Assembly (NCBI GenBank): GCA_029261195.1
Contig: JAJDBU010000038.1
Span: 1 to 55,191 of the forward strand
Source: Nitrospirota bacterium
Lineage (GTDB): Bacteria; Nitrospirota; Nitrospiria; SBBL01; JAADHI01
Length of the DNA: 55,191 nt
Reading direction: 5' to 3'
Shown here piece by piece: positions 28,280-44,072 of this stretch. Under the pieces are notes generated by a model that ran no database searches, was not told the origin of the DNA, and saw nothing but the letters and a program-made list of their open reading frames with translations. Position numbers and translations under genes: made by a program. How positions within the stretch are numbered: the stretch's first letter is position 1; every line of letters starts with the position of its first letter.

Positions 28280-28310
28280 TATGGGGTTCTTAAAAGAAGG
28301 AGAATGGATT

Positions 28311-29324
28311 ATGAAGCATCACCGTTTAAGACTTGTCCTTGTCAATCTTTTTATATTGCTGGTGTTCTATTCCGCCTCAGAATCTGTCTTTGCAAAAGAT
28401 CCGCAAGACCCACCCGAAAGAGAATCTGCCTCTATAAAAAAGTCCAAGCCTACATTTGATCTCGAAATCGGCCTAGGCTATCGAATCGATGACCTTGATT
28501 GGTCAATTGCCGGGTTTTTGACTCAAACGAATTTTGTAAATATCCTTTCAGAATTAACCTGGGAAGATCTTAGGATCTATCAAGTCAAAGTGGGAGGACG
28601 CCTAAGCGTTCCCCTTCACAAAAGGCCTTACGCAGTCTATATGAGAGCTGCCTTAAGTTACGGTAAAATTGTGGACGGTGAAAATCAGGATTCCGACTAC
28701 GCCGGCAACAACCGGACACTCGAATTTTCACGTTCCAATAATGACGCAAACGACGGGACGGTCGGTGACGGCAGCATCGGAGTCGGTTTTCAGTCGAAAC
28801 GCAGGCGGATAAGAAACCAATGGATGCTGAGGGCTGCACCGCTCATCGGTTACTCCTATCACCAACAGAACCTTGAAATGACGAATGGATTTCAAACTGT
28901 TCCCTTGGCCGGTCCATTCTCGGGTTTAAACAGCACCTATGATGCAGAATGGTTCGGGCCTTGGTTCGGCCTTGACCTGGCAATAGATGACGGTAAAAAA
29001 ACCACCCTTTTTGCTTCGATCGAACTCCATTGGGACACCAGCTACAATGCTGAGGCTGATTGGAACCTGAGACAAGACTTTGCCCACCCCCTCAGCTTTA
29101 AGCACGAAGCCGATGGAGAGGGCATTGTGGGGCGCATTGGCTGGGCGTATTTTATCAGGCGAAATCTCTCGATCAATACCACCTTTGAGTATCAGCGCTG
29201 GACAACGAAATCGGGCACAGATACAACGTTTTTATCTAATGGCACCGTCGTGAAAACCCCCTTTAATCAGGCCACATGGGAATCTCGCGCTCTCAACCTG
29301 AGCCTCCAGTATCGCTTTCAATAA
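28311..29324 (+). CDS. Predicted outer-membrane beta-barrel protein
   Basis: 337 residues from ATG 28311; AAGGAG lies 9 bp upstream, whereas the earlier ATG at 28281 has no such site. A signal peptide (about 1-28, ending SVFA) is followed by alternating amphipathic strands (IGLGYRIDDLDWSIAG, MLRAAPLIGYSYHQQ, LNLSLQYRFQ) and the C-terminus ends in aromatic F-Q, as in many outer-membrane proteins. I do not recognise a specific family; weak similarity to omptin-like or Protochlamydia-type barrels is possible. Its stop lies only 3 bp before the frame of the efflux channel gene, so it is probably part of that operon. Confidence 0.7.
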   Translation: MKHHRLRLVLVNLFILLVFYSASESVFAKDPQDPPERESASIKKSKPTFDLEIGLGYRIDDLDWSIAGFLTQTNFVNILSELTWEDLRIYQVKVGGRLSVPLHKRPYAVYMRAALSYGKIVDGENQDSDYAGNNRTLEFSRSNNDANDGTVGDGSIGVGFQSKRRRIRNQWMLRAAPLIGYSYHQQNLEMTNGFQTVPLAGPFSGLNSTYDAEWFGPWFGLDLAIDDGKKTTLFASIELHWDTSYNAEADWNLRQDFAHPLSFKHEADGEGIVGRIGWAYFIRRNLSINTTFEYQRWTTKSGTDTTFLSNGTVVKTPFNQATWESRALNLSLQYRFQ

Positions 29325-29327
29325 AGT

Positions 29328-30800
29328 TTGCCATGTGTAAAAAAACAAACCTCATTGGGCCCTTATTTGAATAAGTTAAAGACTGACTCGCTGCTTCTTT
29401 TTTTCTTCACCCTCATGATGCTTTCCTGCATTCCGAAACCCGCACAAGTTGCTTCTCCTGTTTCTGCGCCGGAACAATTTTCCAGTTCCGGCAAAGCTCA
29501 AATTTCTGATCAGTGGTGGCTCAGTTTTGATGATCCCGGACTGAATTATTTGATGGATCAAGCCTTATCCCATAACTTCAGCTTGCGAAGCGCATGGGAC
29601 AGGCTGGCTCAGAAGGAAGCCCTGGTGCAAAGAGAAGGAGCCGCTCGCAGTCCCACACTTGATTTTCAGGCGAATGCCTCACGCACAGAAACAAGAGGTT
29701 CGGCAGGCACCCTCACGACAGGCCAGCAAAGCCGATCTTTTAAACGGTTTTTTGTGGGATTGAGCACCAACTATGAACTGGATCTTTGGGGGCGCATTGC
29801 TTCGACGCATGAGGCGGCCAAGCTCGACCTGAAAGCCAGTGAAGAAGATCTTCAAGCTGCCGCGATAACGCTTTCGTCGCAAGTCGCCTTTAGCTGGTTT
29901 CAATGGCTGGAACAGAAGGGGCAACTTGAATTACTTGCAAAGCAGATCAAAACCAATGAACAGGTCTTGGAACTCGTCACCTTCCGTTTTCGCCGTGGTC
30001 AGGTCGGAGCGACCGATGTCCTTCAGCAACGGCAATTGATTGAAGCCAGTCGAGGAGATATGGCTTCGGCGCAGTCGAAGGCAAAAGTGTTACGACATCA
30101 ATTGGCCATTTTGCTGGGGCGTCCCCCGAGTTTTTTACCGAGCCTTTCGGTTTCAGAACAAGAAAGCAAATTGACGACGATGCCATCACTACCCGAAACC
30201 GGTTTGCCTGCCGAACTCATCCAGCGTCGCCCGGACATTCGCAGCGCCTATTTCAGGCTGCTTGCAGCAGATCAAAGCCTGGCCGCTGCCGTGTCCAATC
30301 GTTTTCCTCGTATCAGTCTCACTGCGCAGATTAATAGTTCGGGTCAGGCAGTCCGGGATTTATTTGATAACTGGCTGACAACATTGGCGGCCAATCTGGT
30401 CGGACCGATCATTGACGGTGGAAGCCGTCGTGCCGAAGTGGACCGCACACGGGCCTTGCTTTCAGAGCGTTTGAACGATTATGGACAAGTCATTCTTGAG
30501 GCGCTTGGCGAGGTTGAAAATGCCTTGATTCAGGAGAGGCAGCAACATCTTTTAATTCAAAGCTTCGATAAGCAACTCAAACTTTCACGGCAGGTCCTTG
30601 AGCAAACGCAGGAAAATTATCGACAAGGCGGCGCTGATTTCCTTCGTATTCTGGATGTCCTGCTGACACAACAGGCCCTGGAGCGTTCCCTTTTGCAGGC
30701 CCGTCGTGAGGCTAAGGGTTTTCGTGTGAATCTTTATCGTGCGCTTGGTGGTGGATGGAAGCTGGATCGGCCCGTACAAGCAGGGTTTATAGACAAATAG
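29328..30800 (+). CDS. TolC/NodT-type outer-membrane efflux lipoprotein
   Basis: 490 residues in the longest frame. A signal peptide with lipobox LMMLSC puts the lipidated cysteine at residue 34. Two outer-membrane efflux protein repeats follow, with LNYLMDQALSHNFSLRSA and LPAELIQRRPDIRSAYFRLLAADQSLAAAVSNRFPRISL-type motifs, which are diagnostic of NodT factors. The start is uncertain: TTG 29328 has no clear ribosome binding site and later TTG codons are possible. It is the exit duct for the RND pump encoded next. Confidence 0.92.
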   Translation: MPCVKKQTSLGPYLNKLKTDSLLLFFFTLMMLSCIPKPAQVASPVSAPEQFSSSGKAQISDQWWLSFDDPGLNYLMDQALSHNFSLRSAWDRLAQKEALVQREGAARSPTLDFQANASRTETRGSAGTLTTGQQSRSFKRFFVGLSTNYELDLWGRIASTHEAAKLDLKASEEDLQAAAITLSSQVAFSWFQWLEQKGQLELLAKQIKTNEQVLELVTFRFRRGQVGATDVLQQRQLIEASRGDMASAQSKAKVLRHQLAILLGRPPSFLPSLSVSEQESKLTTMPSLPETGLPAELIQRRPDIRSAYFRLLAADQSLAAAVSNRFPRISLTAQINSSGQAVRDLFDNWLTTLAANLVGPIIDGGSRRAEVDRTRALLSERLNDYGQVILEALGEVENALIQERQQHLLIQSFDKQLKLSRQVLEQTQENYRQGGADFLRILDVLLTQQALERSLLQARREAKGFRVNLYRALGGGWKLDRPVQAGFIDK

Positions 30801-30824
30801 CATGTGGAGTAGGTGAAATAAATA

Positions 30825-32072
30825 ATGAGTGACCAAGAAAAACCCAATTCGGGACGAGGGATCATTTCGTTTCTTCTACGTGCTTTCATGGTCGTCGCCG
30901 TACTTGCCGGAGGGGCATTTTTTTCAATGTCCCTGGTGAAGAGCGGCCCGACGGCAATACGCAAAGTCCCCGAACGCCGCGCCCGCCTCGTGGAGGTGGA
31001 ACAGGTTCAGCTCTCAAATCACCGTGTCACCATTGAAGGTATGGGCACAGTCAAACCTGCTCGGGAGATCGATCTTTATGCCCGCGTAAATGGCGAGGTT
31101 CGCTGGCTGAGTCCCCTGCTAATGCCGGGTGGACATTTTATTGCCGGTGAAAAAATCCTTCAAATCGACCGTTCTGATTATGAACTGGTAGCTCGTGAAC
31201 GCCTTGCAGATCTTGCGCAGGCTCAAAGCAATTTAAAACTGGAGCTGGGACAACAAAGCGTTGCTCTTCGAGAATTTGAGCTTTTGGGTGAGAATTTTGG
31301 AAAAAAACCGGGCGGAAACCTCAAAAACAAAGATCACGACCTTGTTCTACGTTTACCGCAATTAGAAAATGTGCGCGCCGGCGTAGAAAAAGCTCAATCG
31401 GCTCTCGAAAAGGCCAAGTTGGATCTTGATCGAACCAGGGTTATTGCCCCTTTTAATGCCATCGTAGAAACGGAGGCGGTCGATCTCGGGGCAGTGGTCA
31501 CGACTGCAACAAAGCTTGCGACTTTGATTGGCACTGACCGCTATCGGGTGGAGGTCTTGATTCCGGTGGATCAACTCCGTTGGATCAAAATCCCAGGCAT
31601 GAACAAGCTGGAAAGCGGGTCGGCCGTAAAAGTGTATGATCGAGCGGCATGGGGGGAGAAGGCTTTTCGGGAAGGAAAGGTCATCCGACTTGCGGGAGAC
31701 CTTGAAGCAGAAGGACGTATGGCCCGCCTTTTAGTTGAAGTAAGCGACCCCTTGGGTCTCAAATCCGGAAAGAAAAGCCTTCCCCATCTCTTGATCGGCT
31801 CTTTTGTGCGTGTCGCCATTGCGGGCAGAAGCCTCAATCAGGTCGTCGCCATTGACCGTGCGCTTCTCAGGGACGGCGATACCGTCTGGCTTATGAATAC
31901 AAAAAATGAATTGGAAGTCCGGCCGATTGAGATTGTTTACCGGAATCGGGAGCAGGTCTTCGTTTCGACTGGTCTTCACAAAGGGGAGCGTTTAGTCATC
32001 ACCGATCTCTCTGCCCCCGCAGCGGGAATGCCGCTTCGCATACAAAGGACGGGTGAGAGATCAAAGCCTTGA
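30825..32072 (+). CDS. RND efflux periplasmic adaptor subunit
   Basis: 415-residue membrane-fusion protein. One N-terminal membrane anchor (about 17-38) is followed by the lipoyl/barrel-sandwich half motif EIDLYARVNGEVRWLSPLLMPGGHFIAGEKI, an alpha-helical hairpin (about 120-200), the second half (ARVIAPFNAIVETEAVDLGAVVT) and a beta-barrel domain. It links the inner-membrane permease to the TolC-like channel. Its stop overlaps the permease start (TTGA). Confidence 0.93.
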   Translation: MSDQEKPNSGRGIISFLLRAFMVVAVLAGGAFFSMSLVKSGPTAIRKVPERRARLVEVEQVQLSNHRVTIEGMGTVKPAREIDLYARVNGEVRWLSPLLMPGGHFIAGEKILQIDRSDYELVARERLADLAQAQSNLKLELGQQSVALREFELLGENFGKKPGGNLKNKDHDLVLRLPQLENVRAGVEKAQSALEKAKLDLDRTRVIAPFNAIVETEAVDLGAVVTTATKLATLIGTDRYRVEVLIPVDQLRWIKIPGMNKLESGSAVKVYDRAAWGEKAFREGKVIRLAGDLEAEGRMARLLVEVSDPLGLKSGKKSLPHLLIGSFVRVAIAGRSLNQVVAIDRALLRDGDTVWLMNTKNELEVRPIEIVYRNREQVFVSTGLHKGERLVITDLSAPAAGMPLRIQRTGERSKP

Positions 32073-35000
32073 ATACCAATCCATCCCATCACAATACGGA
32101 AGCTCATCACAAACTGAAAGGCCCCATCGCCTGGATGGTGCATCATCGGGTGACACCCAATTTGCTGATGATTGTGCTTTTGCTTGGCGGCTTCCTGATG
32201 TCGGGGAAAATCAAGAAAGAAGTCTTCCCCAATTTTGATCTGGACGAGGTTCGCATTACGGTTGCCTATCCCGGTGCAAGCCCGGAAGAGGTTGAGCAAG
32301 GCATTATTTTGGCAATTGAAGAAGCCATCAGCGACATTGATGGCGTGGAGGAAATCACGGCCACTGCAAATGAAGGCATGGCCTCTATTATCGCAGAATT
32401 GGAAGAGGGCGGAAATTCACAAAAAACCTTTCAAGATATCCAACAGGAAATTGATCGCATTCGAACCTTTCCGGAAGAAGCAGAGGAGCCGACGGCTACG
32501 ATTCCTACACGGAGGAGAATCGTCGTTTCTGCCGTCATTTATGGCGATGCAAGTGAAGGGGTACTGCGCGAGCTGGCCGAAGAAGTGCGCGACCGCATCC
32601 TGCAAGATCCGGAAGTGACCCAGGTTGAGTTGGGCGGGGCGCGCAATGTCGAGGTGAGCATCGAAATCCCGATGCTCACCTTACGTACTTATGGTCTGAC
32701 CCTGGAGGGCATCGCACAAAAAATACGGGCGACTGCTGTTGAGCTGCCGGGCGGTGCGATTGATACCGCCAGCGGTGAAATATTGATCCGGATGAAGGAG
32801 CGGCGAGACTGGGCTAAGGAGTTTGCACAAATCCCGATTGTCACGACCGCTGAAGGGGCGGTGCTTCATCTTGAGGAAATTGGCATTGTTCGCGAGGGTT
32901 TTGAGGAAAGTAATCGTTTTTTGAGCTTCAACGGCCAGCCGGCGATGGCCCTGGATATCTATCGTGTGGGTGAGCAGACGCCGATCAGCGTTTCAGACGC
33001 CGTCCAGAAAAACCTGAGAGAAATTGAACCCGATCTGCCGCCCGGCATTTTCCTCGAAATCAACCGGGACCGATCAAAGGTGTATCGCCAGCGTCTCAAT
33101 CTGCTGCTCAAAAATGGATTTTACGGGCTTTTGCTGGTCTTGGTTTTGCTGGGCCTTTTCCTTGAGTTTAAGCTGGCCTTTTGGGTGACCATGGGGATAC
33201 CCACCTCCTTTTTAGGGGCCTTTCTTTTTCTGCCATCGCTCGGCGTTACAATTAATATCGTCTCGATGTTTGCCTTTATTATTGCGCTGGGCATCGTGGT
33301 TGATGACGCTATCATTGCAGGGGAAAATATTTACGAATACCGAAGCAAGGGAGAGGGTTTCGTTTCGGCAGCGATTAAAGGGACAAAGGATGTGTCCGTC
33401 CCGATCACCTTCAGCATCCTCACCAATATCGTTGCTTTTAGCCCGCTCTATTTTGTGCCCGGACAGATGGGGAAAATCTTTCAGACCTTGCCGCTCGTTG
33501 TCTGTAGTGTTTTTATCATTTCCTGGGTCGAAGCCATTTTAGTGCTGCCTGCTCACGTCGCCCATGGCGAAAAAGAACAAACCGGGACGCTGACCTATAA
33601 GTTGCACAAACACCAACAACGCTTCAGCACCTTCTTTTCAAAGTGGGTTGTCAAACTCTTTGGGCCATTTTTAGAGCTCTGCCTTCGTTATCGTTATTTC
33701 TCGGTCGCTGTCGGAATTGCGACCCTGGTGGTGGTCTTGGGTTATGCCAAAAGCGGCCGGATCGGTTTCATCCTTTTTCCAAAGATTGAGGCAGATCAGG
33801 CCGTCGTCACAGCGACCCTCCCCTATGGTAGTGCGATGCACAAGGTCAGGGAAACGCGGGACTGGCTCGTAAAAAGCGTCAACGTGGTGATTCAGGCCAA
33901 TGGCGGGGCGGAGTTGGCAGAGGGCACGCGCGCTAGAATTGATGAAAATATCGTCGAGGTGAGCGCCTATTTGACCGAACCCGAAGTCCGCCCGATTAGC
34001 ACGGCAGAGCTTACGCGGCTTTGGCGGGAGCAGACCGGACAGATGACGGGCTTAGAGTCTCTTCGTTTTGAATCGGACCGCGGCGGACCTGGGCGAGGGG
34101 CGGGCATCACCGTGGAGCTGAGTCACCGAGATATAGCCATCTTGGATCAAGCCAGCGCCGAACTGGCTAATTCGCTGAGGGAATTTCCCAATGTCAAAGA
34201 TATTGATGACGGTCTTGCCGCCGGAAAAGAGCAGCTCGATTTTCGGCTGCTTCCGGAGGGAGAAAGTTTGGGTCTCACCGTGCGAGAGGTCGCAAATCAG
34301 GTGCGGAGCGCCTTTTTTGGTGAGGAAGCCCTGCGGCAGCAACGAGGCCGAAATGAGGTCAAAGTGATGGTGCGGCTGCCGGAGGCCGAACGGATCAGCG
34401 AATACGATGTCGAGCAATTGTTAATTCGCACACCCTCTGGGCGTGATGTGCCTTTGATGCATGTGGTCGAAGTGCAACGTGGCCGGGCCTACACCTCGAT
34501 TACGCGTCATAACAACCGGAGGACGGTTGCCGTTACCGGAAATGTGGTTCCGATTGGGGAGACACGCCAGGTGCTAGGCGTCGTGAAATCGGAGATTTTG
34601 CCGGACTTGGTTCGGAATTATCCTGGTTTGAGTTACAGTTTTGAAGGGCGCCAAGCGGAAATGCGAAAAAGTTTGATGAGTTTGGGGCGTGGATTCATGA
34701 TGGCCATGTTGGGCATCTACATGCTCTTGGCCATTCCTTTTCGCAGTTATGTGCAGCCGCTCATCGTCATGGCCGCCATCCCCTTCGGCATCTTCGGGGC
34801 CATCATCGGCCACATATTCATGGACTACAATCTGAGTATCATCAGCGTCATGGGCATCGTCGCCCTCTCCGGTGTTGTCGTAAATGATGCCCTGGTCATG
34901 ATTGAATTCGCCAACGGGCAGCGTGATGCAGGCGCAAGCCCGCGAGAGGCCATTCGCATGGCAGGCATCCGACGTTTTCGCCCCATCTTACTCACCACCC

Positions 35001-35230
35001 TGACCACCTTCGGCGGCCTGGCCCCGATGATTTTCGAGACTTCACGACAGGCTCGATTCATTATTCCCATGGCCATTTCCCTGGGCTTCGGCATCCTATT
35101 CGCGACAGCGATTACCCTGATTATTATTCCCTGCCTTTATATTATTTTAGAGGATGTGTTGGGCCTATTTCGGAGGGGCTGGCACGGAGAGGAGAAGGGG
35201 CTGTCGGTGGAGGACTCTGGTTTGGTGTAG
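32069..35230 (+). CDS. RND efflux permease (AcrB/HAE-like)
   Basis: 1053-residue inner-membrane drug:proton antiporter-type permease. Twelve membrane helices are split by two large periplasmic loops. Conserved motifs: VFPNFDLDEVRITVAYPGASPEEVE at the first loop, IALGIVVDDAIIAGENIYEYR in TM4 with the proton-relay Asp pair, and SGVVVNDALVMIEFANGQRDAG near the second TM10 region. The start is TTG, overlapping the adaptor gene. The substrate cannot be deduced. With the adaptor and the TolC-like protein it makes a complete tripartite pump. Confidence 0.95.
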   Translation: MNTNPSHHNTEAHHKLKGPIAWMVHHRVTPNLLMIVLLLGGFLMSGKIKKEVFPNFDLDEVRITVAYPGASPEEVEQGIILAIEEAISDIDGVEEITATANEGMASIIAELEEGGNSQKTFQDIQQEIDRIRTFPEEAEEPTATIPTRRRIVVSAVIYGDASEGVLRELAEEVRDRILQDPEVTQVELGGARNVEVSIEIPMLTLRTYGLTLEGIAQKIRATAVELPGGAIDTASGEILIRMKERRDWAKEFAQIPIVTTAEGAVLHLEEIGIVREGFEESNRFLSFNGQPAMALDIYRVGEQTPISVSDAVQKNLREIEPDLPPGIFLEINRDRSKVYRQRLNLLLKNGFYGLLLVLVLLGLFLEFKLAFWVTMGIPTSFLGAFLFLPSLGVTINIVSMFAFIIALGIVVDDAIIAGENIYEYRSKGEGFVSAAIKGTKDVSVPITFSILTNIVAFSPLYFVPGQMGKIFQTLPLVVCSVFIISWVEAILVLPAHVAHGEKEQTGTLTYKLHKHQQRFSTFFSKWVVKLFGPFLELCLRYRYFSVAVGIATLVVVLGYAKSGRIGFILFPKIEADQAVVTATLPYGSAMHKVRETRDWLVKSVNVVIQANGGAELAEGTRARIDENIVEVSAYLTEPEVRPISTAELTRLWREQTGQMTGLESLRFESDRGGPGRGAGITVELSHRDIAILDQASAELANSLREFPNVKDIDDGLAAGKEQLDFRLLPEGESLGLTVREVANQVRSAFFGEEALRQQRGRNEVKVMVRLPEAERISEYDVEQLLIRTPSGRDVPLMHVVEVQRGRAYTSITRHNNRRTVAVTGNVVPIGETRQVLGVVKSEILPDLVRNYPGLSYSFEGRQAEMRKSLMSLGRGFMMAMLGIYMLLAIPFRSYVQPLIVMAAIPFGIFGAIIGHIFMDYNLSIISVMGIVALSGVVVNDALVMIEFANGQRDAGASPREAIRMAGIRRFRPILLTTLTTFGGLAPMIFETSRQARFIIPMAISLGFGILFATAITLIIIPCLYIILEDVLGLFRRGWHGEEKGLSVEDSGLV

Positions 35231-35295: not shown

Positions 35296-37590
35296 GTGAC
35301 ACGTTTCAGAAAAGCGTTTGCCTTCGGGTTTTTTACAGGACTGCTCGGGGTGGGCGTGGCTTTCAATCCTGTCGGCCTGGGTCTTGAAGAAAATTTTGGC
35401 CTGAGTTTGTTATTTAATCTGCGAGGCGCAAGAGCCGCGCCCGAAGAAGTTGTTGTCATTGCTCTTGATAAACGGTCGGCAGACCAACTCAATCTCCCTC
35501 GGGATACTAGAAAGTGGCCCCGATCCTACCACGCAAAATTGATTGATCGTTTAAGCGATGAAGGTGCGAGTGTCATTGCTTTTGATATCTTGTTCAAAGA
35601 GAAGCGCGAGAATGATGCTCTGCTAAGAGAAGCCATTGAGGATGCCGGAAATGTTGTCCTGATTGAAACGATCGAAAAAGAAAGCCTTCATCTAAACAAG
35701 CGCCTGGATCAGGGGGCCGGGAAGGTGGTATTAGAAAAACTTGTCCCTCCGACCCCGGAAATTGCGGCTGCTGCGCTATCACTGGCCCCTTTTCCTCTAC
35801 CGAAAGTCCCGGCCAGAGTAAATCAGTTTTGGACCTTTAAACATGTGAGCGTTGATTTTCCAACGATGCCCGTCGTTGTTTTTCAGATTTTTGCCTTAAA
35901 CGTTTTTGATGAAATGCACTCGCTTTTTGAAAAAGTCTTAAGCCAAGCCAATCTCAACAATGCCAAGCAAGAGCAGATAAACGATGCTTCTATCGCCTTA
36001 ACGAAAAAGTTGCTCACCCGGACAAAAGTTGAACTGATCAATGACAAAAAAATTAATCAATATATCCAAAACCTGAAGGCAATCCTGGGGAAAGAGACAT
36101 TTGTCTCTGGAAAGATGAAGGCAGCCTTGCAGAACCCGGCGCTAAAATATTCTGATCGCCTAAAGGCCGTCATCAATATGTATACAGCCGGCAAAACGCG
36201 CTACCTCAATTTTTACGGACCTCCGGGCACAATTACAACAGTTCCGTTTTATCAAGCGCTTCAAGGGTCGGCTAAGAGCGAAGAGGGTTTAAGCCCCTTT
36301 GATTTTAAGGGCAAGGCCGTCTTTATCGGATCTTCCGAAAGGCTTCCCGACTCTAGAAAAAAAGATGATTTTCATACAGTCTTTTCCCAAGAAACGGGTT
36401 TGTATCTGAGCGGCGTCGAGATTGCCGCAACCGCATTTGCCAACCTACTCAAAGAAAGTTCACTTCGCCTTTTATCTCCCGCATTCCACCTTTTTACCCT
36501 CTTGCTGTGGGGCTGTATCGTCGCAATGCTCTGGTTCTTGCTTTCTCCAGTCAAAGCGTTTTTCTCTACGGTCGGAGCGACTTTATTATTGATTGGCATT
36601 GCTTACAGGCAATTTGAATCTTCCGGGCTTTGGTACCCGGTGATCATTCCGCTCTTTGTCCAGATGCCGATTGCGATTATGGGCGCGTTGCTTTGGAATT
36701 TTGCTGATGCAAAAAAAGAACAGCGACAGATAAAAAAGGCCTTTGCGTATTATCTGCCCGATAAAGTTGTTGAGCGATTATCCGGGCGTATTGAGCTTCT
36801 CAATACTGAGCAGCAGATCGTTGAGGGCATTGTCTTGTATTCAGACATCGAAAATTACACCGTGTTGTCGGAATCAATGCCTCCAAAGGATCTGGCTGCA
36901 TTGATGAGCAATTATTATGAAACCATTTTTGCCCCGGTAGAAAAGTACGGCGGGATTGTGCTGAATGTGACAGGCGATGCCATGCTCGCCATTTGGACAG
37001 GCGCTGAGTTAACGGCAGGACTCAAGCGGCAAGCGTGTAGCACGGCGATTGCGATGGCTGAAGTCCTTGATCGATTTAATCAAGATTCCGGACGGATCAA
37101 ACTCCGCACCCGGATCGGAATCCACTGTGGAGAGATTTTTCTTGGCAATATCGGGGGTGGTCACCGACTCGAATATACCGCAATCGGAGATACGGCCAAT
37201 ACAGCGTCACGCATAGAAGGTCTGAACAAATATCTGAACACAGACTTATTGATCTCGCAGGTCATGCGAGAGGATCTGGACGGATTTTTAACAAGGCCAC
37301 TCGGCGTTTTTTTAATGGCTGGAAAACGGAAGCCGCTCATCATTCATGAGCTTGTTTCTTATTTGGAGCATTGCCATATCGAACAAGAGGAACTTTGCCG
37401 CTTGTTTTCATCCGGCCTTGAGTTATACAGGGAGCGGTGTTGGCGTGAAGCCCTTGAATATTTTTCAAAAGTCCTGAATGCGAAGAGAGAAGACGGCCCC
37501 AGCCTCTTGTACATCAAGCAGTGTCAACACAATATAAAAAATCCGCCACCCCCTTCCTGGGATGGCGTCATTCAGCTCGAAAAAAAATAA
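35296..37590 (+). CDS. CHASE2-domain adenylate/guanylate cyclase
   Basis: 764-residue inner-membrane receptor cyclase. After an N-terminal membrane helix there is a large periplasmic CHASE2 domain (about 40-400; VVVIALDKRSADQL, ASVIAFDILF, KAVFIGSS), then three membrane helices (about 400-480) and a cytosolic class III cyclase domain (about 510-690). Metal-binding Asp residues are in LYSDIENYT (about 517) and TGDAMLAIW (about 561). HRLEYTAIGDTANTASRIEGLNKY carries the substrate/transition-state region. It probably makes cAMP, since the TAIGDT context resembles the CHASE2 adenylate cyclase group, but cGMP cannot be excluded. The start is GTG. The next gene is a FecR-TPR-barrel protein. Confidence 0.93.
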   Translation: MTRFRKAFAFGFFTGLLGVGVAFNPVGLGLEENFGLSLLFNLRGARAAPEEVVVIALDKRSADQLNLPRDTRKWPRSYHAKLIDRLSDEGASVIAFDILFKEKRENDALLREAIEDAGNVVLIETIEKESLHLNKRLDQGAGKVVLEKLVPPTPEIAAAALSLAPFPLPKVPARVNQFWTFKHVSVDFPTMPVVVFQIFALNVFDEMHSLFEKVLSQANLNNAKQEQINDASIALTKKLLTRTKVELINDKKINQYIQNLKAILGKETFVSGKMKAALQNPALKYSDRLKAVINMYTAGKTRYLNFYGPPGTITTVPFYQALQGSAKSEEGLSPFDFKGKAVFIGSSERLPDSRKKDDFHTVFSQETGLYLSGVEIAATAFANLLKESSLRLLSPAFHLFTLLLWGCIVAMLWFLLSPVKAFFSTVGATLLLIGIAYRQFESSGLWYPVIIPLFVQMPIAIMGALLWNFADAKKEQRQIKKAFAYYLPDKVVERLSGRIELLNTEQQIVEGIVLYSDIENYTVLSESMPPKDLAALMSNYYETIFAPVEKYGGIVLNVTGDAMLAIWTGAELTAGLKRQACSTAIAMAEVLDRFNQDSGRIKLRTRIGIHCGEIFLGNIGGGHRLEYTAIGDTANTASRIEGLNKYLNTDLLISQVMREDLDGFLTRPLGVFLMAGKRKPLIIHELVSYLEHCHIEQEELCRLFSSGLELYRERCWREALEYFSKVLNAKREDGPSLLYIKQCQHNIKNPPPPSWDGVIQLEKK

Positions 37591-37941: not shown

Positions 37942-40900
37942 ATGAAAATAAAAAAGACAGCCCCTTCTTTCGAGCGAAAAAATCCATTCTTGAGTCCTTG
38001 TACCTTGATCCTTTTTGTGGGTCTGATGATATTGAACCCCCTTTCCGTTTGGGCTGCGGACTGTGAACCCTGGCTTGCTAAGTTGGTTTCGATTGAAGGG
38101 GAGGTGAAAGCCCGGAAGGCCGGAGAAGAAAGTTGGCAGACCGTAAAAGTCAACAAAACTTTTTGCCGTGGGGAAGCCCTTCAGGTTGGAAAAAACAGTC
38201 GTGCGGCGGCGCTTCTCAGCGACCATAGTCTGGTGCGTCTGGATGCGCAAAGCCTACTGACTTTCACTGGCGAGCGACAACAACAAGGCTTTTGGGTGGA
38301 ATTGCTCAAAGGCATCGGCCACTTCATCAGCCGGGTGCCGCGCAGCTTGAATATTTCGACGCCATTCGTAAATGCGAGCGTGGAAGGAACAGAATTTTTA
38401 GTTCGCGTTGGTACAGATACCGCTTTTCTAAGCGTTTTTGAAGGGGCAGTCACCGCACAAAATAAGCACGGGTCTTTAAAACTCACCAGTGGGGAATCGG
38501 CGACTGTGGGCGCAGGTCAGGCGCCTATCATCCAGCAAGTGATCCGACCGCGTGAGAATGTGCAATGGGCATTGTATTACCCCGCGATATTGCAGTTCGA
38601 TCGTAAAACCTTTGCCGGACAGCCAGCCGGGGCATGGCAATCACGGGCAGCACAATCCATCTCATTATTTACAGAAGGGGCGATTCCTCAAGCCCTTGAC
38701 GCTCTATCTGAAATCGGCAAGAAAATAGACGATGCGAGGTTTTTTAATTATCGCGCCTCATTACGGCTTGCTGTGGGACAAGTGGCCGGGGCGCAGAGCG
38801 ATCTTGATCAGAGCCTTGCCCTCACTCCGAACGACGGTGATGCGCTTGCTCTCAAGGCTGTGATTGCAGTGGTTCAGAACGACCGGGAGGGGGCCTTAGC
38901 CCTTTCAGAACAGGCTCTGACTGCGGCGCCAAATTCGGTCGGGCCGCTGCTTGCCCGCTCCTATGCCTTGCAAAGCAATTTTCAACTTGCAAAAGCCCGT
39001 GAAGCGCTGGAATCAGCCGTGGCGCAAGAGCCCGAAAATGCCCTTGCCTGGTCGCGATTGTCAGAACTCCGATTGATGTTTCGCGATTTGAAGGCCGCGC
39101 TTACAGCGGCAGAAAAGGCCGTTGCAATCAATCCCAATGTCGTACGCGCGCAGACCGTGCTCGGTTTTGCGCAATTAATGCAAATCGATACAGAGGCGGC
39201 AAAACAGTCCTTTGAAAAAGCCATGCGACTGGATCAGGCTTCACCGCTTGTCCGGCTGGGTTTAGGTCTGACCCTGATTCGTGAGGGCAATCTGAAAGCG
39301 GGGCGAAAGGAAATTGAAATTGCGGCGATGCTCGATCCAAGTAACGCCCTGATTCGGAGCTATCTTGGAAAAGCCTATTATGAAGAAAAGCGCGAGGACT
39401 TGGCTGACGAACAATATCGAATGGCCCGCGAGCTTGATGCAAATGATCCGACGCCTGATCTTTATAGCGCAATATTAAATCAAACCCGGAATCGTCCGGT
39501 GGAGGCATTGAAAGAGATTGAACGGTCGATTGCTTTAAATAAAAACCGCGCGGTCTATCGATCCCGCTTGTTGTTGGATGAAGACCTGGCTGCCCGGAGC
39601 GTCAGTCTGGCGCGCATCTATGATGATTTGGGTTTTCAGCAATTGGCCCTTGTGGAAGCCTGGAACTCGCTGAACAGCGATCCGGCAAACTATTCCGCCC
39701 ACCGCTTCCTGGCCGATTCCTACAAGGCGCTTCCCCGCTCGGAGATCGCAAAAAACAGCGCTCTGCTAATGGCTCAATTATTACAACCGCTGAACATTAA
39801 TCCCGTGCAGCCCGGTCTGAGCGACATTGACACAGCCATCCTGAGCGGAACGGGCCTTCGAGACCCTTCTTTTAATGAGTTGGACCAGCTTTTTAACCGC
39901 GACCGCTTTCACTTTCTTTCTTCGGGAGTATGGGGTGAAAATGGTCTCTTCGGCGAAGAAGCAATCTTGAGTGGCCTTCATGGCCGATCTTCTTACAGCT
40001 TTGGACAATCCTATCAGGAATCCGATGGGTTTCGAGCCAATAACGGTTTCACACAAAAAAATATCACCGCCTTTGCCCAGATGCGCCTGACAGCTCGTAC
40101 AAGTATTCAAGCTGAGTTTCGACGTAGCGAAACCGAAAAGGGAGACCTTAATCTCAACTTTGATCCAGATGATTTTTCAAAATTCTCTAAGAAAAAAAGG
40201 GAAGTTGAAACCTACCGGCTTGGTTTTCATCAAATCCTCTCCCCTCGCTCAAACATCATTGCCACTTTCTTCTATCGAGATTCAAAGGAGGATGGGCTCT
40301 CAGAGCTTCTTCCTGACCCTCCCTTCATCACTGGCGGTTCAATAAGGGCTCTCCTAGAAGCACGAGGTTATAGCGGTGAGATCCAGCATTTATTTGTGAG
40401 GGAACATACAAATATTATTACTGGTTTGGGTCATTTTGACGGAGACAGTATACCTAATATTATTGCAAATATTTTATCTCCTATCCCGGCACTAGCTGGG
40501 GAAAAGATTATCGATGACAAAAAAACTCGTGACCGTCATACCAACCTCTATCTTTATTCCATCACCAATGTTTTTCCAAACACCACACTCACTCTAGGTG
40601 GCAGCGGTGACTTCTTCGATGGCATTCCAAGAAACCGTGATCAATTTAATCCAAAACTGGGTCTCACTTTAAGGCCGAAGCCTTCAACGAGCCTCCGTAT
40701 AGCGGCCTTTAGAACCCTCAAAAGATTGCTTGTAGCGAATCAAACGATTGAACCGACGCAGGTGGCTGGTTTTCAGCAGTTTTTCGATGACACAAATGGT
40801 ACAGATGCTTGGCGTTTTGGCGCGGCAGTCGACCAGGAGTTTTCAAAAACACTCTTTGGTGGAATCGAAGTCACTACACGGGATGTGGAAGTGCCTCAAG

Positions 40901-41370
40901 TTCCCAGCCCAGGCCTTCCTTCGGAAGTGAAGAGGGATGAACGCCGGGGACGTGCTTATCTCTACTGGGCCCCGCATCCCCAGCTTTCAGCCAGTGCAGA
41001 ATATCTCTATGAACGTCTCGATTCAGAGGACTTTACAAACCCCTTCAATCCAAAAGTTAAAACGCAACGCTTTCCTCTGGGCATCAACTATTATCTCCCA
41101 AACGGGTTTTTCACCCGAATCAAAGGTACCTTCATTGATCAAGAGGGGATGTTTAAAGATGTCGCATCGGGTAAATTCTTAGACGACGGCGACAGGTTTT
41201 GGTTGGTGGATGCCTCGGTCGGTTACCGCTTGCCGAAGCGTTTGGGCTTCTTAACACTGGCGGTTAAAAACCTACTCGACGAAAAATTTCGATTCCAAGA
41301 GACTGATCTCGGGAATCCATCCATCCAAGCGGAGCGCCTAGTTTTTAGTAAACTGACACTGGCGTTTTAG
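37942..41370 (+). CDS. FecR domain - TPR - C-terminal beta-barrel fusion protein
   Basis: 1142 residues. A signal peptide (about 1-38, ending SVWAA) is followed by a FecR domain (about 48-190: VSIEGEVKARKAGEESWQTV, RAAALLSDHSLVRLDAQSLLTF, NASVEGTEFLVRV). A long TPR array follows (about 235-640, many units such as ALAWSRLSELRLMFRDLKAALTAAEKA). The last 500 residues are amphipathic strands of a large outer-membrane barrel related to TonB-dependent receptors, closing with LTLAVKNLLDEKFRFQETD and a terminal F. No plug domain or TonB box is seen. Layout suggests a periplasmic scaffold joined to an outer-membrane pore, like TPR-barrel exporters. A good AAGGAA ribosome binding site precedes the ATG. 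It follows the CHASE2 cyclase and precedes a small peptide gene. Confidence 0.85.
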   Translation: MKIKKTAPSFERKNPFLSPCTLILFVGLMILNPLSVWAADCEPWLAKLVSIEGEVKARKAGEESWQTVKVNKTFCRGEALQVGKNSRAAALLSDHSLVRLDAQSLLTFTGERQQQGFWVELLKGIGHFISRVPRSLNISTPFVNASVEGTEFLVRVGTDTAFLSVFEGAVTAQNKHGSLKLTSGESATVGAGQAPIIQQVIRPRENVQWALYYPAILQFDRKTFAGQPAGAWQSRAAQSISLFTEGAIPQALDALSEIGKKIDDARFFNYRASLRLAVGQVAGAQSDLDQSLALTPNDGDALALKAVIAVVQNDREGALALSEQALTAAPNSVGPLLARSYALQSNFQLAKAREALESAVAQEPENALAWSRLSELRLMFRDLKAALTAAEKAVAINPNVVRAQTVLGFAQLMQIDTEAAKQSFEKAMRLDQASPLVRLGLGLTLIREGNLKAGRKEIEIAAMLDPSNALIRSYLGKAYYEEKREDLADEQYRMARELDANDPTPDLYSAILNQTRNRPVEALKEIERSIALNKNRAVYRSRLLLDEDLAARSVSLARIYDDLGFQQLALVEAWNSLNSDPANYSAHRFLADSYKALPRSEIAKNSALLMAQLLQPLNINPVQPGLSDIDTAILSGTGLRDPSFNELDQLFNRDRFHFLSSGVWGENGLFGEEAILSGLHGRSSYSFGQSYQESDGFRANNGFTQKNITAFAQMRLTARTSIQAEFRRSETEKGDLNLNFDPDDFSKFSKKKREVETYRLGFHQILSPRSNIIATFFYRDSKEDGLSELLPDPPFITGGSIRALLEARGYSGEIQHLFVREHTNIITGLGHFDGDSIPNIIANILSPIPALAGEKIIDDKKTRDRHTNLYLYSITNVFPNTTLTLGGSGDFFDGIPRNRDQFNPKLGLTLRPKPSTSLRIAAFRTLKRLLVANQTIEPTQVAGFQQFFDDTNGTDAWRFGAAVDQEFSKTLFGGIEVTTRDVEVPQVPSPGLPSEVKRDERRGRAYLYWAPHPQLSASAEYLYERLDSEDFTNPFNPKVKTQRFPLGINYYLPNGFFTRIKGTFIDQEGMFKDVASGKFLDDGDRFWLVDASVGYRLPKRLGFLTLAVKNLLDEKFRFQETDLGNPSIQAERLVFSKLTLAF

Positions 41371-41522
41371 GCGAAAATAGAATGAGTTCTACATTTAACC
41401 GGGCGACTATTTATGGAAGGGGGTGATTAGCGAAAGAGATCAGAGCAAAATCAATTTCAATACCAACTAGGATGTAAGTAGTCAAATCACTTAATCATTG
41501 CAATTTATTCATGGAGGAAAAA

Positions 41523-41729
41523 ATGGCAGATGAATATACAGAAGTAAAATTAGCAGTCTATCCTGACGGAAAAGTAACAGTCTTAAACCCGAGCGAACCA
41601 CCGATAGTCATGAAACCTGGAGATCCACCCTTTGTCCCTCCGAAGGGAATTACAGCGACAAACACAATTGGGGTTATTCGCTCCAACCCAACCTATATTT
41701 GTGTTGGTGGGACAATTTATTGCATTTAA
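41523..41729 (+). CDS. 68-residue peptide with Cys-containing hydrophobic C-terminus
   Basis: ATG 41523 is chosen because GGAGG lies 6 bp upstream; the earlier in-frame ATG at 41511 overlaps that site. The peptide has a charged N-terminus (MADEYTEVKLAVYPDGKVTV), a Pro-rich middle (EPPIVMKPGDPPFVPPKG) and a C-terminus NPTYICVGGTIYCI with two Cys. No signal peptide is present. The leader-plus-Cys-rich-core look is that of a processed or exported peptide, but no maturation enzyme was recognised. It lies about 150 bp after the FecR-barrel gene in the same direction and may belong to it. I do not recognise a family. Confidence 0.6.
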   Translation: MADEYTEVKLAVYPDGKVTVLNPSEPPIVMKPGDPPFVPPKGITATNTIGVIRSNPTYICVGGTIYCI

Positions 41730-41846: not shown

Positions 41847-42001
41847 TTACGCATCGTTATCCATCTTCGCTTCCAAACAACGTCGTTTTTCATCACCCTC
41901 CAAAAGGCGGCGGGTGATGGCCTTAACAAAGAGGCTTAACCATTCGGTGCGATGCAATTCACCTTCCAACTCCTCCCGCGTGACCACGATCAACGAAACC
42001 G
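41847..42001 (-). pseudogene. Truncated second copy of the kinase gene 3' end
   Basis: About 155 bp that match the 3' end of the Ser/Thr kinase gene (42663-44072) almost base for base in the first two thirds, with roughly six mismatches over 115 bases by eye. Translated on the minus strand it gives VSLIVVTREELEGELHRTEWLSLFVKAITRRLLEGDEK, then a diverged tail and TAA at 41847. It lacks any start. Homology stops abruptly at 42001. It is the last helix region of a cyclic-nucleotide-binding domain and lies downstream of the toxin gene. Confidence 0.85.
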
Positions 42002-42035
42002 GAAGCAATTTAGCCCGAAATTCGGCTTGAGCTTG

Positions 42036-42326
42036 TTATCCTTTAGTTCGGTCGTGTGCTTTTTTATACACCTTCCCTCGCTCCCTTTTTCCGATCGCAA
42101 GGACATAGATGACAAGATGTTGATCAGAAATCTCATAGACCAATCTATAGCCAGCCGATCGTAGTTTAATTTTGTATACGTTCTCAAAACCGCTCAGTCT
42201 GCTTGCCGGGACATGAGGATTCCTCAGGCGTTCTTTCAATTTCTTTTTGAATTGTTGTTGAAGAGGCGAAGACAGTTTCTTCCATTCTTTTAGGGCAATC
42301 GGAAGAAACTTGAGACTATAAATCAT
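42036..42326 (-). CDS. RelE/ParE-family toxin
   Basis: 96 residues from ATG 42326; the start overlaps the antitoxin end by 11 bp. The RelE fold pattern is clear: YSLKFLPIALKEWKKLSSPLQQQFKKKLKERL, PHVPASRLSGFENVYKIKLRSAGYRLVYEI and VIYVLAIGKRERGKVYKKA. The C-terminal GKRERxKVY motif carries basic catalytic residues of RelE-type ribosome-dependent mRNA interferases. It pairs with the Phd-like antitoxin upstream. Confidence 0.92.
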   Translation of the reverse strand: MIYSLKFLPIALKEWKKLSSPLQQQFKKKLKERLRNPHVPASRLSGFENVYKIKLRSAGYRLVYEISDQHLVIYVLAIGKRERGKVYKKAHDRTKG

Positions 42327-42567
42327 CAAGTGCTATCGCAACAGCGCTCCCCAGGTCTTTTCTGCGGGTTTTTACAAGTTTTCCTAATTCATAGTCGTCT
42401 AAAAGATCCATCATCCACTCATAAGTGTCTGCGGGTATCAGATAGGCCGTAGGCTTGTTGTGATTTAAAATCGCAACGGGAGAGCCCTCAGCTTCATTTA
42501 ACAGGGCCGTTGGATTCTTCTTTAGCTCAGAGATACTTGCAGAACAATTGGCGAAAATCTGTTTCAT
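42316..42567 (-). CDS. Phd/YefM-family antitoxin
   Basis: 83 residues from ATG 42567, which has TGGAGGCA upstream. The N-terminal DNA-binding domain shows ASISELKKNPTALLNEAEGSPVAILNHNKPTAYLIP, the typical Phd/YefM sequence. The C-terminal part (WMMDLLDDYELGKLVKTRR) wraps the toxin. Such antitoxins repress their own operon. The pair sits between the kinase gene and a copy of the kinase 3' end. Confidence 0.92.
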   Translation of the reverse strand: MKQIFANCSASISELKKNPTALLNEAEGSPVAILNHNKPTAYLIPADTYEWMMDLLDDYELGKLVKTRRKDLGSAVAIALDDL

Positions 42568-42662
42568 CAATGCCTCCATAAAAGACCTGAATTAAGCGCT
42601 GACTTTAGATCATTTATGAGGCAAAATCAAACGAACGCGGGCTTAGGCAGTGAGTAAAAATT

Positions 42663-44072
42663 TCAAACTGATGCATCATTTTTAATTTCGGCTTCCAGAC
42701 GGCGCAGCTTTTCATCTCCCTCCAAAAGGCGTCGGGTGATGGCCTTGACGAAGAGGCTTAACCATTCGGTGCGATGCAATTCACCTTCCAACTCCTCCCG
42801 TGTGACCACGATCAAGGAAACCGCTGTGCTCGTCGTAACCGTAGCCGTTCGCATCTGTGATCCAAAAATCGCTGTTTCTCCGAAAACCTCTCCTTCACCG
42901 AGTTGGCAGATCCACTGAGGTTTATGATCGACATTTTTGTGAACCTCGCAGGTTCCGTTTAGGATAATGTAAGCGGCGTTGGCCTTCCGTCCTTCTTGTA
43001 CAATGACGCAGCCCTTGGGGAGGTGTTTCGTCTCAAACCACCCGCCTCCCCGCAGAAAGTCCTCAATCTCATTCATTAGGGCATCGACAGTCGGGTAACG
43101 GGATGCCTGGTCCGAACTTAATGCACGCATTGCAATACGACATAATCCCGGAGGGAGTTTTCGATCTTTCACGACGACCTGCGGCCCTTGAATGTCTCCT
43201 TGATCCGCCAGGGCCCTGATGTCCCGAACCGTCTTTCCAAGATAAGGGGCGCGTAAGGTCAACATAAAATAAAGCAAGCCGCCAAGACCAAAGATATCGG
43301 TTCGTTCGTTGATGTTTTCATTTTTGCTCCGGGCTTGTTCAGGAGCCATGTAGGCGGGCGTACCGGATAATGAACTCTTTCTTCCTTGTAAGCGGGTATT
43401 GTCGGTCTCTTCAGCTACACCTTCACCTGCTTTAATTGATTGATTTTCTTTGATTAAATGAGCAATGCCCCAATCCACCACATAGACCTGCCCATGGGTC
43501 CCGACCATGACGTTGCTGGGCTTAAGGTCACAATGCACCACGCCCCGACTATGCGCAAAGGAAATGGCATCACATATTTTTAAGAAGATGTTCAACCAGT
43601 GCCTCATGTTTTTCCCAATCACACTTTCGGGATCTTCTGCCTTCAATGCATCGCATAAGGTTTTACCCTCCACCAGCTTCATGGTAAAACGCTTAGGCCT
43701 GCCGTCATCATCCATTTCGATGTCATGAACCGGGATGATGTTTGGATGATCCAAACTCGCCATGATTTTGGCTTCTTCAAAGAAGCGGTCTCGATTGTAC
43801 TGAGGGGTGTCTGGCTTCAACTCCTTTCTGGCAATCTGACGATGTAACAATTTATCACGCACCTTACAGACCGTACTTGTCCCGCCTTGCCCAAGGACTT
43901 CCTTCTCCTCAAAGCGGGAAGAAGCGGTCATTTTCACGGAGTTCTCCCGAACTTGGCTTGGGATGTGAATGGTTTGATCGAGATCCTCTGGAAGGTCGTA
44001 AGCGAGCGAAGTGTCCGTGTTTTTCTTCTTAGCCGCTATGGTCCCTACAATAGGCTTAGGGGGTGTTCTCAA
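42663..44072 (-). CDS. Ser/Thr protein kinase with C-terminal cyclic-nucleotide-binding domain
   Basis: 469-residue cytosolic kinase, no membrane anchor. The kinase domain (about 55-330) has P loop GQGGTSTV, the Lys in IARKEL, HCDLKPSN near 179 (Cys replaces the usual Arg), DWG near 197 instead of DFG, and GTPAYMAPEQ. The C-terminal cNMP domain (about 345-455) keeps the phosphate-binding cassette FGETAIFGSQMRTATV, with Glu and Arg that bind the cyclic nucleotide. Being close to a CHASE2 cyclase it is a candidate effector. The start is TTG directly after the ridA stop (TTAATTG), so translation is probably coupled to ridA. Confidence 0.93.
   Translation of the reverse strand: MRTPPKPIVGTIAAKKKNTDTSLAYDLPEDLDQTIHIPSQVRENSVKMTASSRFEEKEVLGQGGTSTVCKVRDKLLHRQIARKELKPDTPQYNRDRFFEEAKIMASLDHPNIIPVHDIEMDDDGRPKRFTMKLVEGKTLCDALKAEDPESVIGKNMRHWLNIFLKICDAISFAHSRGVVHCDLKPSNVMVGTHGQVYVVDWGIAHLIKENQSIKAGEGVAEETDNTRLQGRKSSLSGTPAYMAPEQARSKNENINERTDIFGLGGLLYFMLTLRAPYLGKTVRDIRALADQGDIQGPQVVVKDRKLPPGLCRIAMRALSSDQASRYPTVDALMNEIEDFLRGGGWFETKHLPKGCVIVQEGRKANAAYIILNGTCEVHKNVDHKPQWICQLGEGEVFGETAIFGSQMRTATVTTSTAVSLIVVTREELEGELHRTEWLSLFVKAITRRLLEGDEKLRRLEAEIKNDASV

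Follow-up and report, generated by a model that had tools for sequence, protein, structure and literature searches.

The window, which is the whole 55,191-nucleotide stretch of Nitrospirota DNA analyzed here, carries on its forward strand a gene for a protein of 68 aa (41523..41729). The reading frame runs for 68 codons from an ATG at 41523 to a TAA stop at 41727-41729 and is a real gene. A Shine-Dalgarno sequence, GGAGG (41513..41517, same strand), lies 5 nt ahead of the ATG, as the original prediction of a short peptide gene with a ribosome binding site had described. A longer call of the same frame, from 41511, begins inside the Shine-Dalgarno sequence, making 41523 the better start. The encoded protein has an N-terminal strand-turn-strand (LAVYPDGKVTVLNP), a Pro-rich linker, and a C-terminal cysteine hairpin (NPTYICVGGTIYCI) that spans Cys60 to Cys67 (41700..41723, forward strand; codons 41700-41702 and 41721-41723). 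It is slightly acidic by residue count, and its predicted structure is all-beta at low confidence (mean pLDDT 55), a model judged too weak for fold search. The gene starts 152 bp past the stop of a gene for a FecR-TPR-barrel protein on the same strand, and no terminator-like site was found on that strand in the interval.

The FecR-TPR-barrel gene (37942..41370, forward strand) encodes an NsrA-type protein of 1142 aa with a FecR domain (residues 80-170), a TPR array (about 230-540), and TonB-receptor-like barrel strands (655-1141). All three regions were returned by a Pfam scan (FecR, TPR, and TonB_dep_Rec_b-barrel, the last above the cut-off), and a Foldseek search with the predicted structure (mean pLDDT 80) retrieved FpvA, FptA, FhuE, and FecA at E values from 1e-15, for FpvA, to 5e-14. 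No plug family was detected by the Pfam scan, and in the model the strands directly follow the helical TPR region. Pfam also gave no match to DUF560/Slam, the nearest solved folds being TonB-dependent receptors. The barrel profile matches NsrA at E 2.9e-30 over columns 50-1111, and at E 1.2e-8 with the barrel part alone; a single-sequence barrel search of plasmids had given no match, and NsrA was reached through CHASE2 instead. In Sinorhizobium meliloti, a FecR-domain gene with the same domains as the window barrel protein stands directly before cyaK (L173). Two points lead us to take this gene as nsrA, namely the barrel limits published for NsrA (aa 600-1200) and the location of nsrA just upstream of cyaK. 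NsrA, which with CyaK is the only tested relative found in this analysis, has been reported to be needed to perceive a peptidic signal, uL2, which raises cAMP by way of CHASE2 cyclases (PMC7529298, PMC13001267). Because the fold is that of a TonB-dependent receptor and the protein is homologous along its length to the receptor NsrA, a receptor or sensor module is a better reading of the barrel than the export barrel proposed originally.

Upstream of the receptor gene and on the same strand lies a gene for a CHASE2 adenylate/guanylate cyclase of 764 aa (35296..37590; CHASE2 E 1.7e-30, Guanylate_cyc E 2.1e-14), likely the cAMP output of the module. A same-strand CHASE2/cyclase gene is found upstream of the barrel gene in 64 of 83 loci. 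Convergent to the short gene, a Ser/Thr protein kinase gene on the reverse strand (42663..44072) encodes a C-terminal cNMP-binding domain, and its product is a possible cAMP effector. Genes for cNMP-binding proteins occur near the module in about 15 loci and PDE-like genes in 6 of 71, which fits cAMP signaling. Directly upstream of the cyclase gene, on the same strand, the window also contains a Pom-type outer-membrane protein and an OEP/HlyD/RND efflux set (28281-35230).

Of the 396 genomes of the phylum, 24, that of the window among them, encode full-length FecR-TPR-barrel orthologues. With the barrel profile, 502 relatives were recovered from a collection of bacterial and archaeal genomes, for which a single-sequence scan of genome contigs had returned none, and the best 80 of them include Desulfobacterota, Nitrospirota, Brocadiales, Gammaproteobacteria, Acidobacteria, Methylomirabilota, and Nitrospinaceae. 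A set of 90 dereplicated loci from several phyla, all with downstream DNA present, was then used to examine the position behind the barrel, with the opposite strand of the same DNA as the control. A short open reading frame with the cysteine-hairpin motif directly follows the barrel gene in 57 of the 90 loci, vs 2 of 90 in the antisense control; the motif rule misses some members that were recognised by eye, at L077, L143, and L150. Carriers in culture include Desulfosarcina alkanivorans (L092) and Desulfonema magnum (L109). Homologues adjoining the same FecR-TPR-barrel gene, the check suggested with the original prediction, thus exist and lie directly after it. In a quick FastTree of the barrels, a clade of 26 rows carries larger secreted proteins in place of the short protein, mostly without CHASE2, and outside this clade the short frame is present in 54 of 67 testable loci. 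In this clade, such larger secreted proteins were seen downstream of the barrel at L055, L056, L071, L098, L113, L144, and L145, nearly all of those tested being without a Pfam family. The gene in the slot behind the barrel varies fast, and the slot itself is kept. At two loci near the window in the barrel tree, the short gene is followed by a peptidase gene, C39-like cysteine peptidase in one (L053:8897-9556) and reprolysin-like metallopeptidase in the other (L052:9520-11304).

By plain similarity, the short protein looks like an orphan, as originally noted: Pfam, NCBIfam, and the PDB hold no family matching it, and a single-sequence search of the genomes of 58 relatives gave nothing significant (best E 0.012), so that its relatives were found via the neighboring barrel gene. 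A Pfam hit to a reovirus domain (E 0.006, 17 bits) is below the cut-off and was put down to chance, and a likeness of the hairpin to choline-binding repeats is far under the Pfam cut-off. A leave-one-out profile, built from 37 neighbor peptides of other genomes with the window protein excluded, matches the window frame along its length at 18.6 bits (E 0.0015 in 10,343 sequences); the best of 10,000 shuffles reached 9.8 bits, and the frame ranks first among the 343 open reading frames of the window. An earlier, smaller version of the profile had given 13.3 bits (E 0.015). When the window protein was included in the profile, 16 strong matches (E<1e-11) were obtained in the 396 genomes of the phylum, all 16 at barrel loci.

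Many barrels are followed by genes of the same build, namely a short frame with a strong Shine-Dalgarno sequence, encoding an N-terminal strand-turn-strand (LAVMDNGTVKV and VEISRNGKVDI in relatives, LAVYPDGKVTV in the window), a variable middle, and a C-terminal hairpin (NPCTWVNALGTWYYICW and NPTCRWAKIGGVWYYICS in relatives), with tails rich in Cys, Trp, and Tyr. Close pairs within the family show purifying selection (pN/pS 0.11-0.27); the window gene itself has no close relative for such pairing. Conservation between subfamilies is low, with a mean column identity of 24%, and one or both Cys are absent in some members. The short gene is a member of a previously undescribed family, made up of tiny proteins whose genes mostly sit immediately after that of an outer-membrane receptor, and by the signs of profile, Shine-Dalgarno sequence, and pN/pS, the family appears to be translated and under selection.

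In five relatives, the reading frame ends at a TGA that falls in the last Cys column or beside it, and these are candidate new selenoproteins (L066:6395-6583, L154:7730-7909, L087:4030-4224, L073:4644-5000, and a gene on the minus strand after the barrel at L190). In L066 and L154 the TGA falls in the alignment column of the window Cys67 codon, at which their tree neighbors L115 and L140 have Cys; in L087, L073, and L190, for which the alignment is less certain, it is close to this column, and its placement in the column itself is not sure. SECIS-like hairpins lie 10-15 nt downstream of the TGA in all five, and those of L066 and L154 begin 11 and 12 nt after it, respectively, with a loop that starts with G. 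These hairpins were considered as terminators, but none of the five is followed by a T-run. A first hairpin rule, written after L066 and L154 had been seen, marked only these two and L087 among the 57 members, vs 1.9% of all TGAs in the loci; L195, in a second set, was also marked and is not a candidate. The four constraints of a published bacterial SECIS model (PMC13188914) were then applied. All four are passed by L066, L154, and L087 in a scripted scan (background 1.8% of TGAs) and by L073 when its fold is read; L100 passes too, but with an unfitting reading frame, and L190, from the second set, misses the energy limit (-6.8 vs -7.5). SelA is encoded in the genomes of all five TGA members, and also in 19 of 26 other genomes of the set, so that its presence is a necessary rather than a strong test. 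Within the nearest clade, SelA is present in the three carriers of TGA and absent from the two with Cys. A SelB match was found in G251 and none in the genome of L154; the genome of the window has neither SelA nor SelB, and the window protein has Cys. Selenocysteine in the TGA members is likely, though not proven, on these sequence grounds. In most cases, selenocysteine serves in redox sites. Together with this, the exchange of Cys and TGA suggests that the hairpin may be redox-active or metal-binding.

Where the short protein acts was approached through signal peptides, called with a simple rule based on hydrophobicity and the lipobox. Of the 57 motif-bearing members, 15 were assigned a Sec or lipoprotein signal, and 42, the window protein among them, have none. 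Export of the peptide, as originally suggested, is putative. At two loci (L059:5897-6559 and L069:5783-6528), tandem copies with the same type of Cys hairpin are present, the first leaderless and the second with a Sec signal peptide. No exporter recurs in the neighborhoods of the leaderless members. The members with signals and the tandem copies support an extracytoplasmic place of action; with 42 of 57 members leaderless and no recurrent exporter, such a site is only putative for the leaderless ones.

A functional link of the short protein to the receptor and the cyclase is likely. On balance, the short protein is probably a dedicated third component of an NsrA/CyaK-type transmembrane cAMP module that modulates its signal, with the redox or metal state of the hairpin setting the output, although this is held with modest confidence. 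In such a module, the CHASE2 adenylate cyclase would sit in the inner membrane and the FecR-TPR-barrel receptor in the outer membrane, with the short all-beta protein as their partner. Its C-terminal hairpin may bind the receptor, at the barrel or at the periplasmic FecR-TPR part. Activation of the cyclase by the receptor would then depend on the redox or metal state of the paired Cys (Cys/Sec in some relatives), and cAMP would in this way report an envelope signal. The location of the leaderless forms and the direction of control are inferred. The S. meliloti nsrA-cyaK pair has no short Cys-hairpin gene, and the receptor can thus work without the short protein.

Other roles were weighed against this one. 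The short protein could be a self-made ligand, a leaderless protein that leaves the cell by lysis or another route and activates the receptor of the same cell or of its neighbors (kin or lysis sensing), as uL2 does for NsrA. The tested ligand of NsrA is itself a cytosolic protein without a leader, with activity in extracts of plants, yeast, and bacteria, and the rapid change of the gene in a retained slot would suit a ligand. However, that ligand is thought to work through basic charge, which the slightly acidic window protein does not share, release is only putative, and the lipoprotein and signal-peptide versions point to a partner that, for part of the family, is tethered or periplasmic; this role is considered unlikely. 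The prevalence of leaderless members, the cyclase on the same strand, and the lack of a terminator between barrel and peptide would also suit a regulator that acts on the CHASE2 cyclase by feedback from the cytoplasm and is translated last in the operon. Versions of the protein with a Sec or lipoprotein signal, among them those in the tandem copies, are hard to reconcile with such a regulator, which is given a still lower probability than the ligand.

The combination of TPR and barrel with an adjoining small protein of conserved C-terminus recalls secretion systems comparable to type XI (Slam/DUF560), in which the short protein would be cargo and the hairpin its export tag, and related barrels of one clade are followed by large secreted proteins. 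Nevertheless, the barrel has the fold of TonB-dependent receptors and not that of the 14-strand type XI barrel, the relative NsrA functions in perception, and the type XI substrates described in the literature have Sec or lipoprotein signals, which most of the short proteins lack; cargo is accordingly judged improbable. Least probable is a precursor of a ribosomally made, modified peptide with leader and core. The short length, the charged first half, and the Cys/Trp/Tyr-rich tail of the family resemble such precursors, but the supposed core is the conserved part, the N-terminal part resembles a small folded domain, and no recurrent family of modification enzymes or peptide exporters was found around the loci. 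The modified peptide of the original prediction thus receives no backing from the neighborhoods; the only candidate residue of this kind, selenocysteine, concerns five relatives and not the window protein. Altogether, a receptor partner whose hairpin modulates cAMP is favored, followed by the ligand, the cytoplasmic regulator, the cargo, and the modified peptide.

Among known systems, the closest is NsrA-CyaK (with CyaD1/D2) of S. meliloti, in which a FecR-TPR-barrel outer-membrane protein likewise adjoins a CHASE2 adenylate cyclase, and cyaD1 has PDE and CRP-type genes next to it, much as PDE-like and cNMP-binding genes lie near some of the loci. It differs in gene order (nsrA before cyaK), in lacking the short gene, and in a barrel that is only distantly similar. 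Beside S. meliloti cyaD1 (L178:2070-6209) stand genes for a Crp/Fnr regulator, a FecR protein, a Sel1-repeat protein, and a phosphodiesterase, a similar cast without the short protein; SMc02178 was considered as a counterpart of the latter and rejected, since the matching gene beside cyaD1 encodes the Sel1-repeat protein. TonB-dependent siderophore receptors with FecR signaling (FecA, FpvA) share the barrel fold and the use of a FecR domain. In contrast to these, the window barrel protein has no plug in sequence order and has FecR fused to it, and the window module has a cyclase output instead of an anti-sigma/sigma pair. Type XI systems (Slam/DUF560, NilB, HrpB) also combine periplasmic TPR with a C-terminal barrel and a neighboring small substrate gene, but the DUF560 barrel has 14 strands, a FecR domain is present in the window protein, and type XI substrates have signal peptides and a C-terminal beta-barrel domain. 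The Burkholderia BiofilmReg operon pairs a FecR protein (LysM-FecR) with a CHASE2 sensor, but this is a histidine kinase instead of a cyclase, and neither a barrel nor a short peptide is present.

The signal sensed by CHASE2 domains has been described as unknown (PMC5192318), and among outer-membrane inputs to CHASE2 cyclases the only tested one found here is NsrA. The 502 receptor relatives across phyla, many with their own tiny conserved protein, provide a direct way to approach the passage of a signal from the outer-membrane barrel to the cyclase. The exchange of Cys and TGA, if confirmed, would add a selenoprotein family, for whose read-through proteins NCBIfam has no model and which was not recognised among the parts consulted of a 2026 selenoprotein inventory (PMC13188914). 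More tentatively, and with less confidence than the role of the window protein, the loci may represent a widespread envelope-to-cAMP system in which a TonB-receptor-like sensor without a plug would have, as its redox-sensing subunit or its ligand subunit, a protein of 60-140 residues with a Cys or Cys/Sec hairpin. Such proteins would be new both as a protein family and as a selenoprotein family, and would supply CHASE2 cyclases with a third component of a new type.

Downstream of the short gene, a ParE/Phd-YefM toxin-antitoxin pair (42036-42579; region 41847-42579) is flanked by the kinase gene on one side and by a copy of the kinase 3' end on the other. This copy, at about 41851-42001, is 87% identical over 151 bp to about 42673-42823, and the pair looks as if it had been inserted with duplication of the flank.
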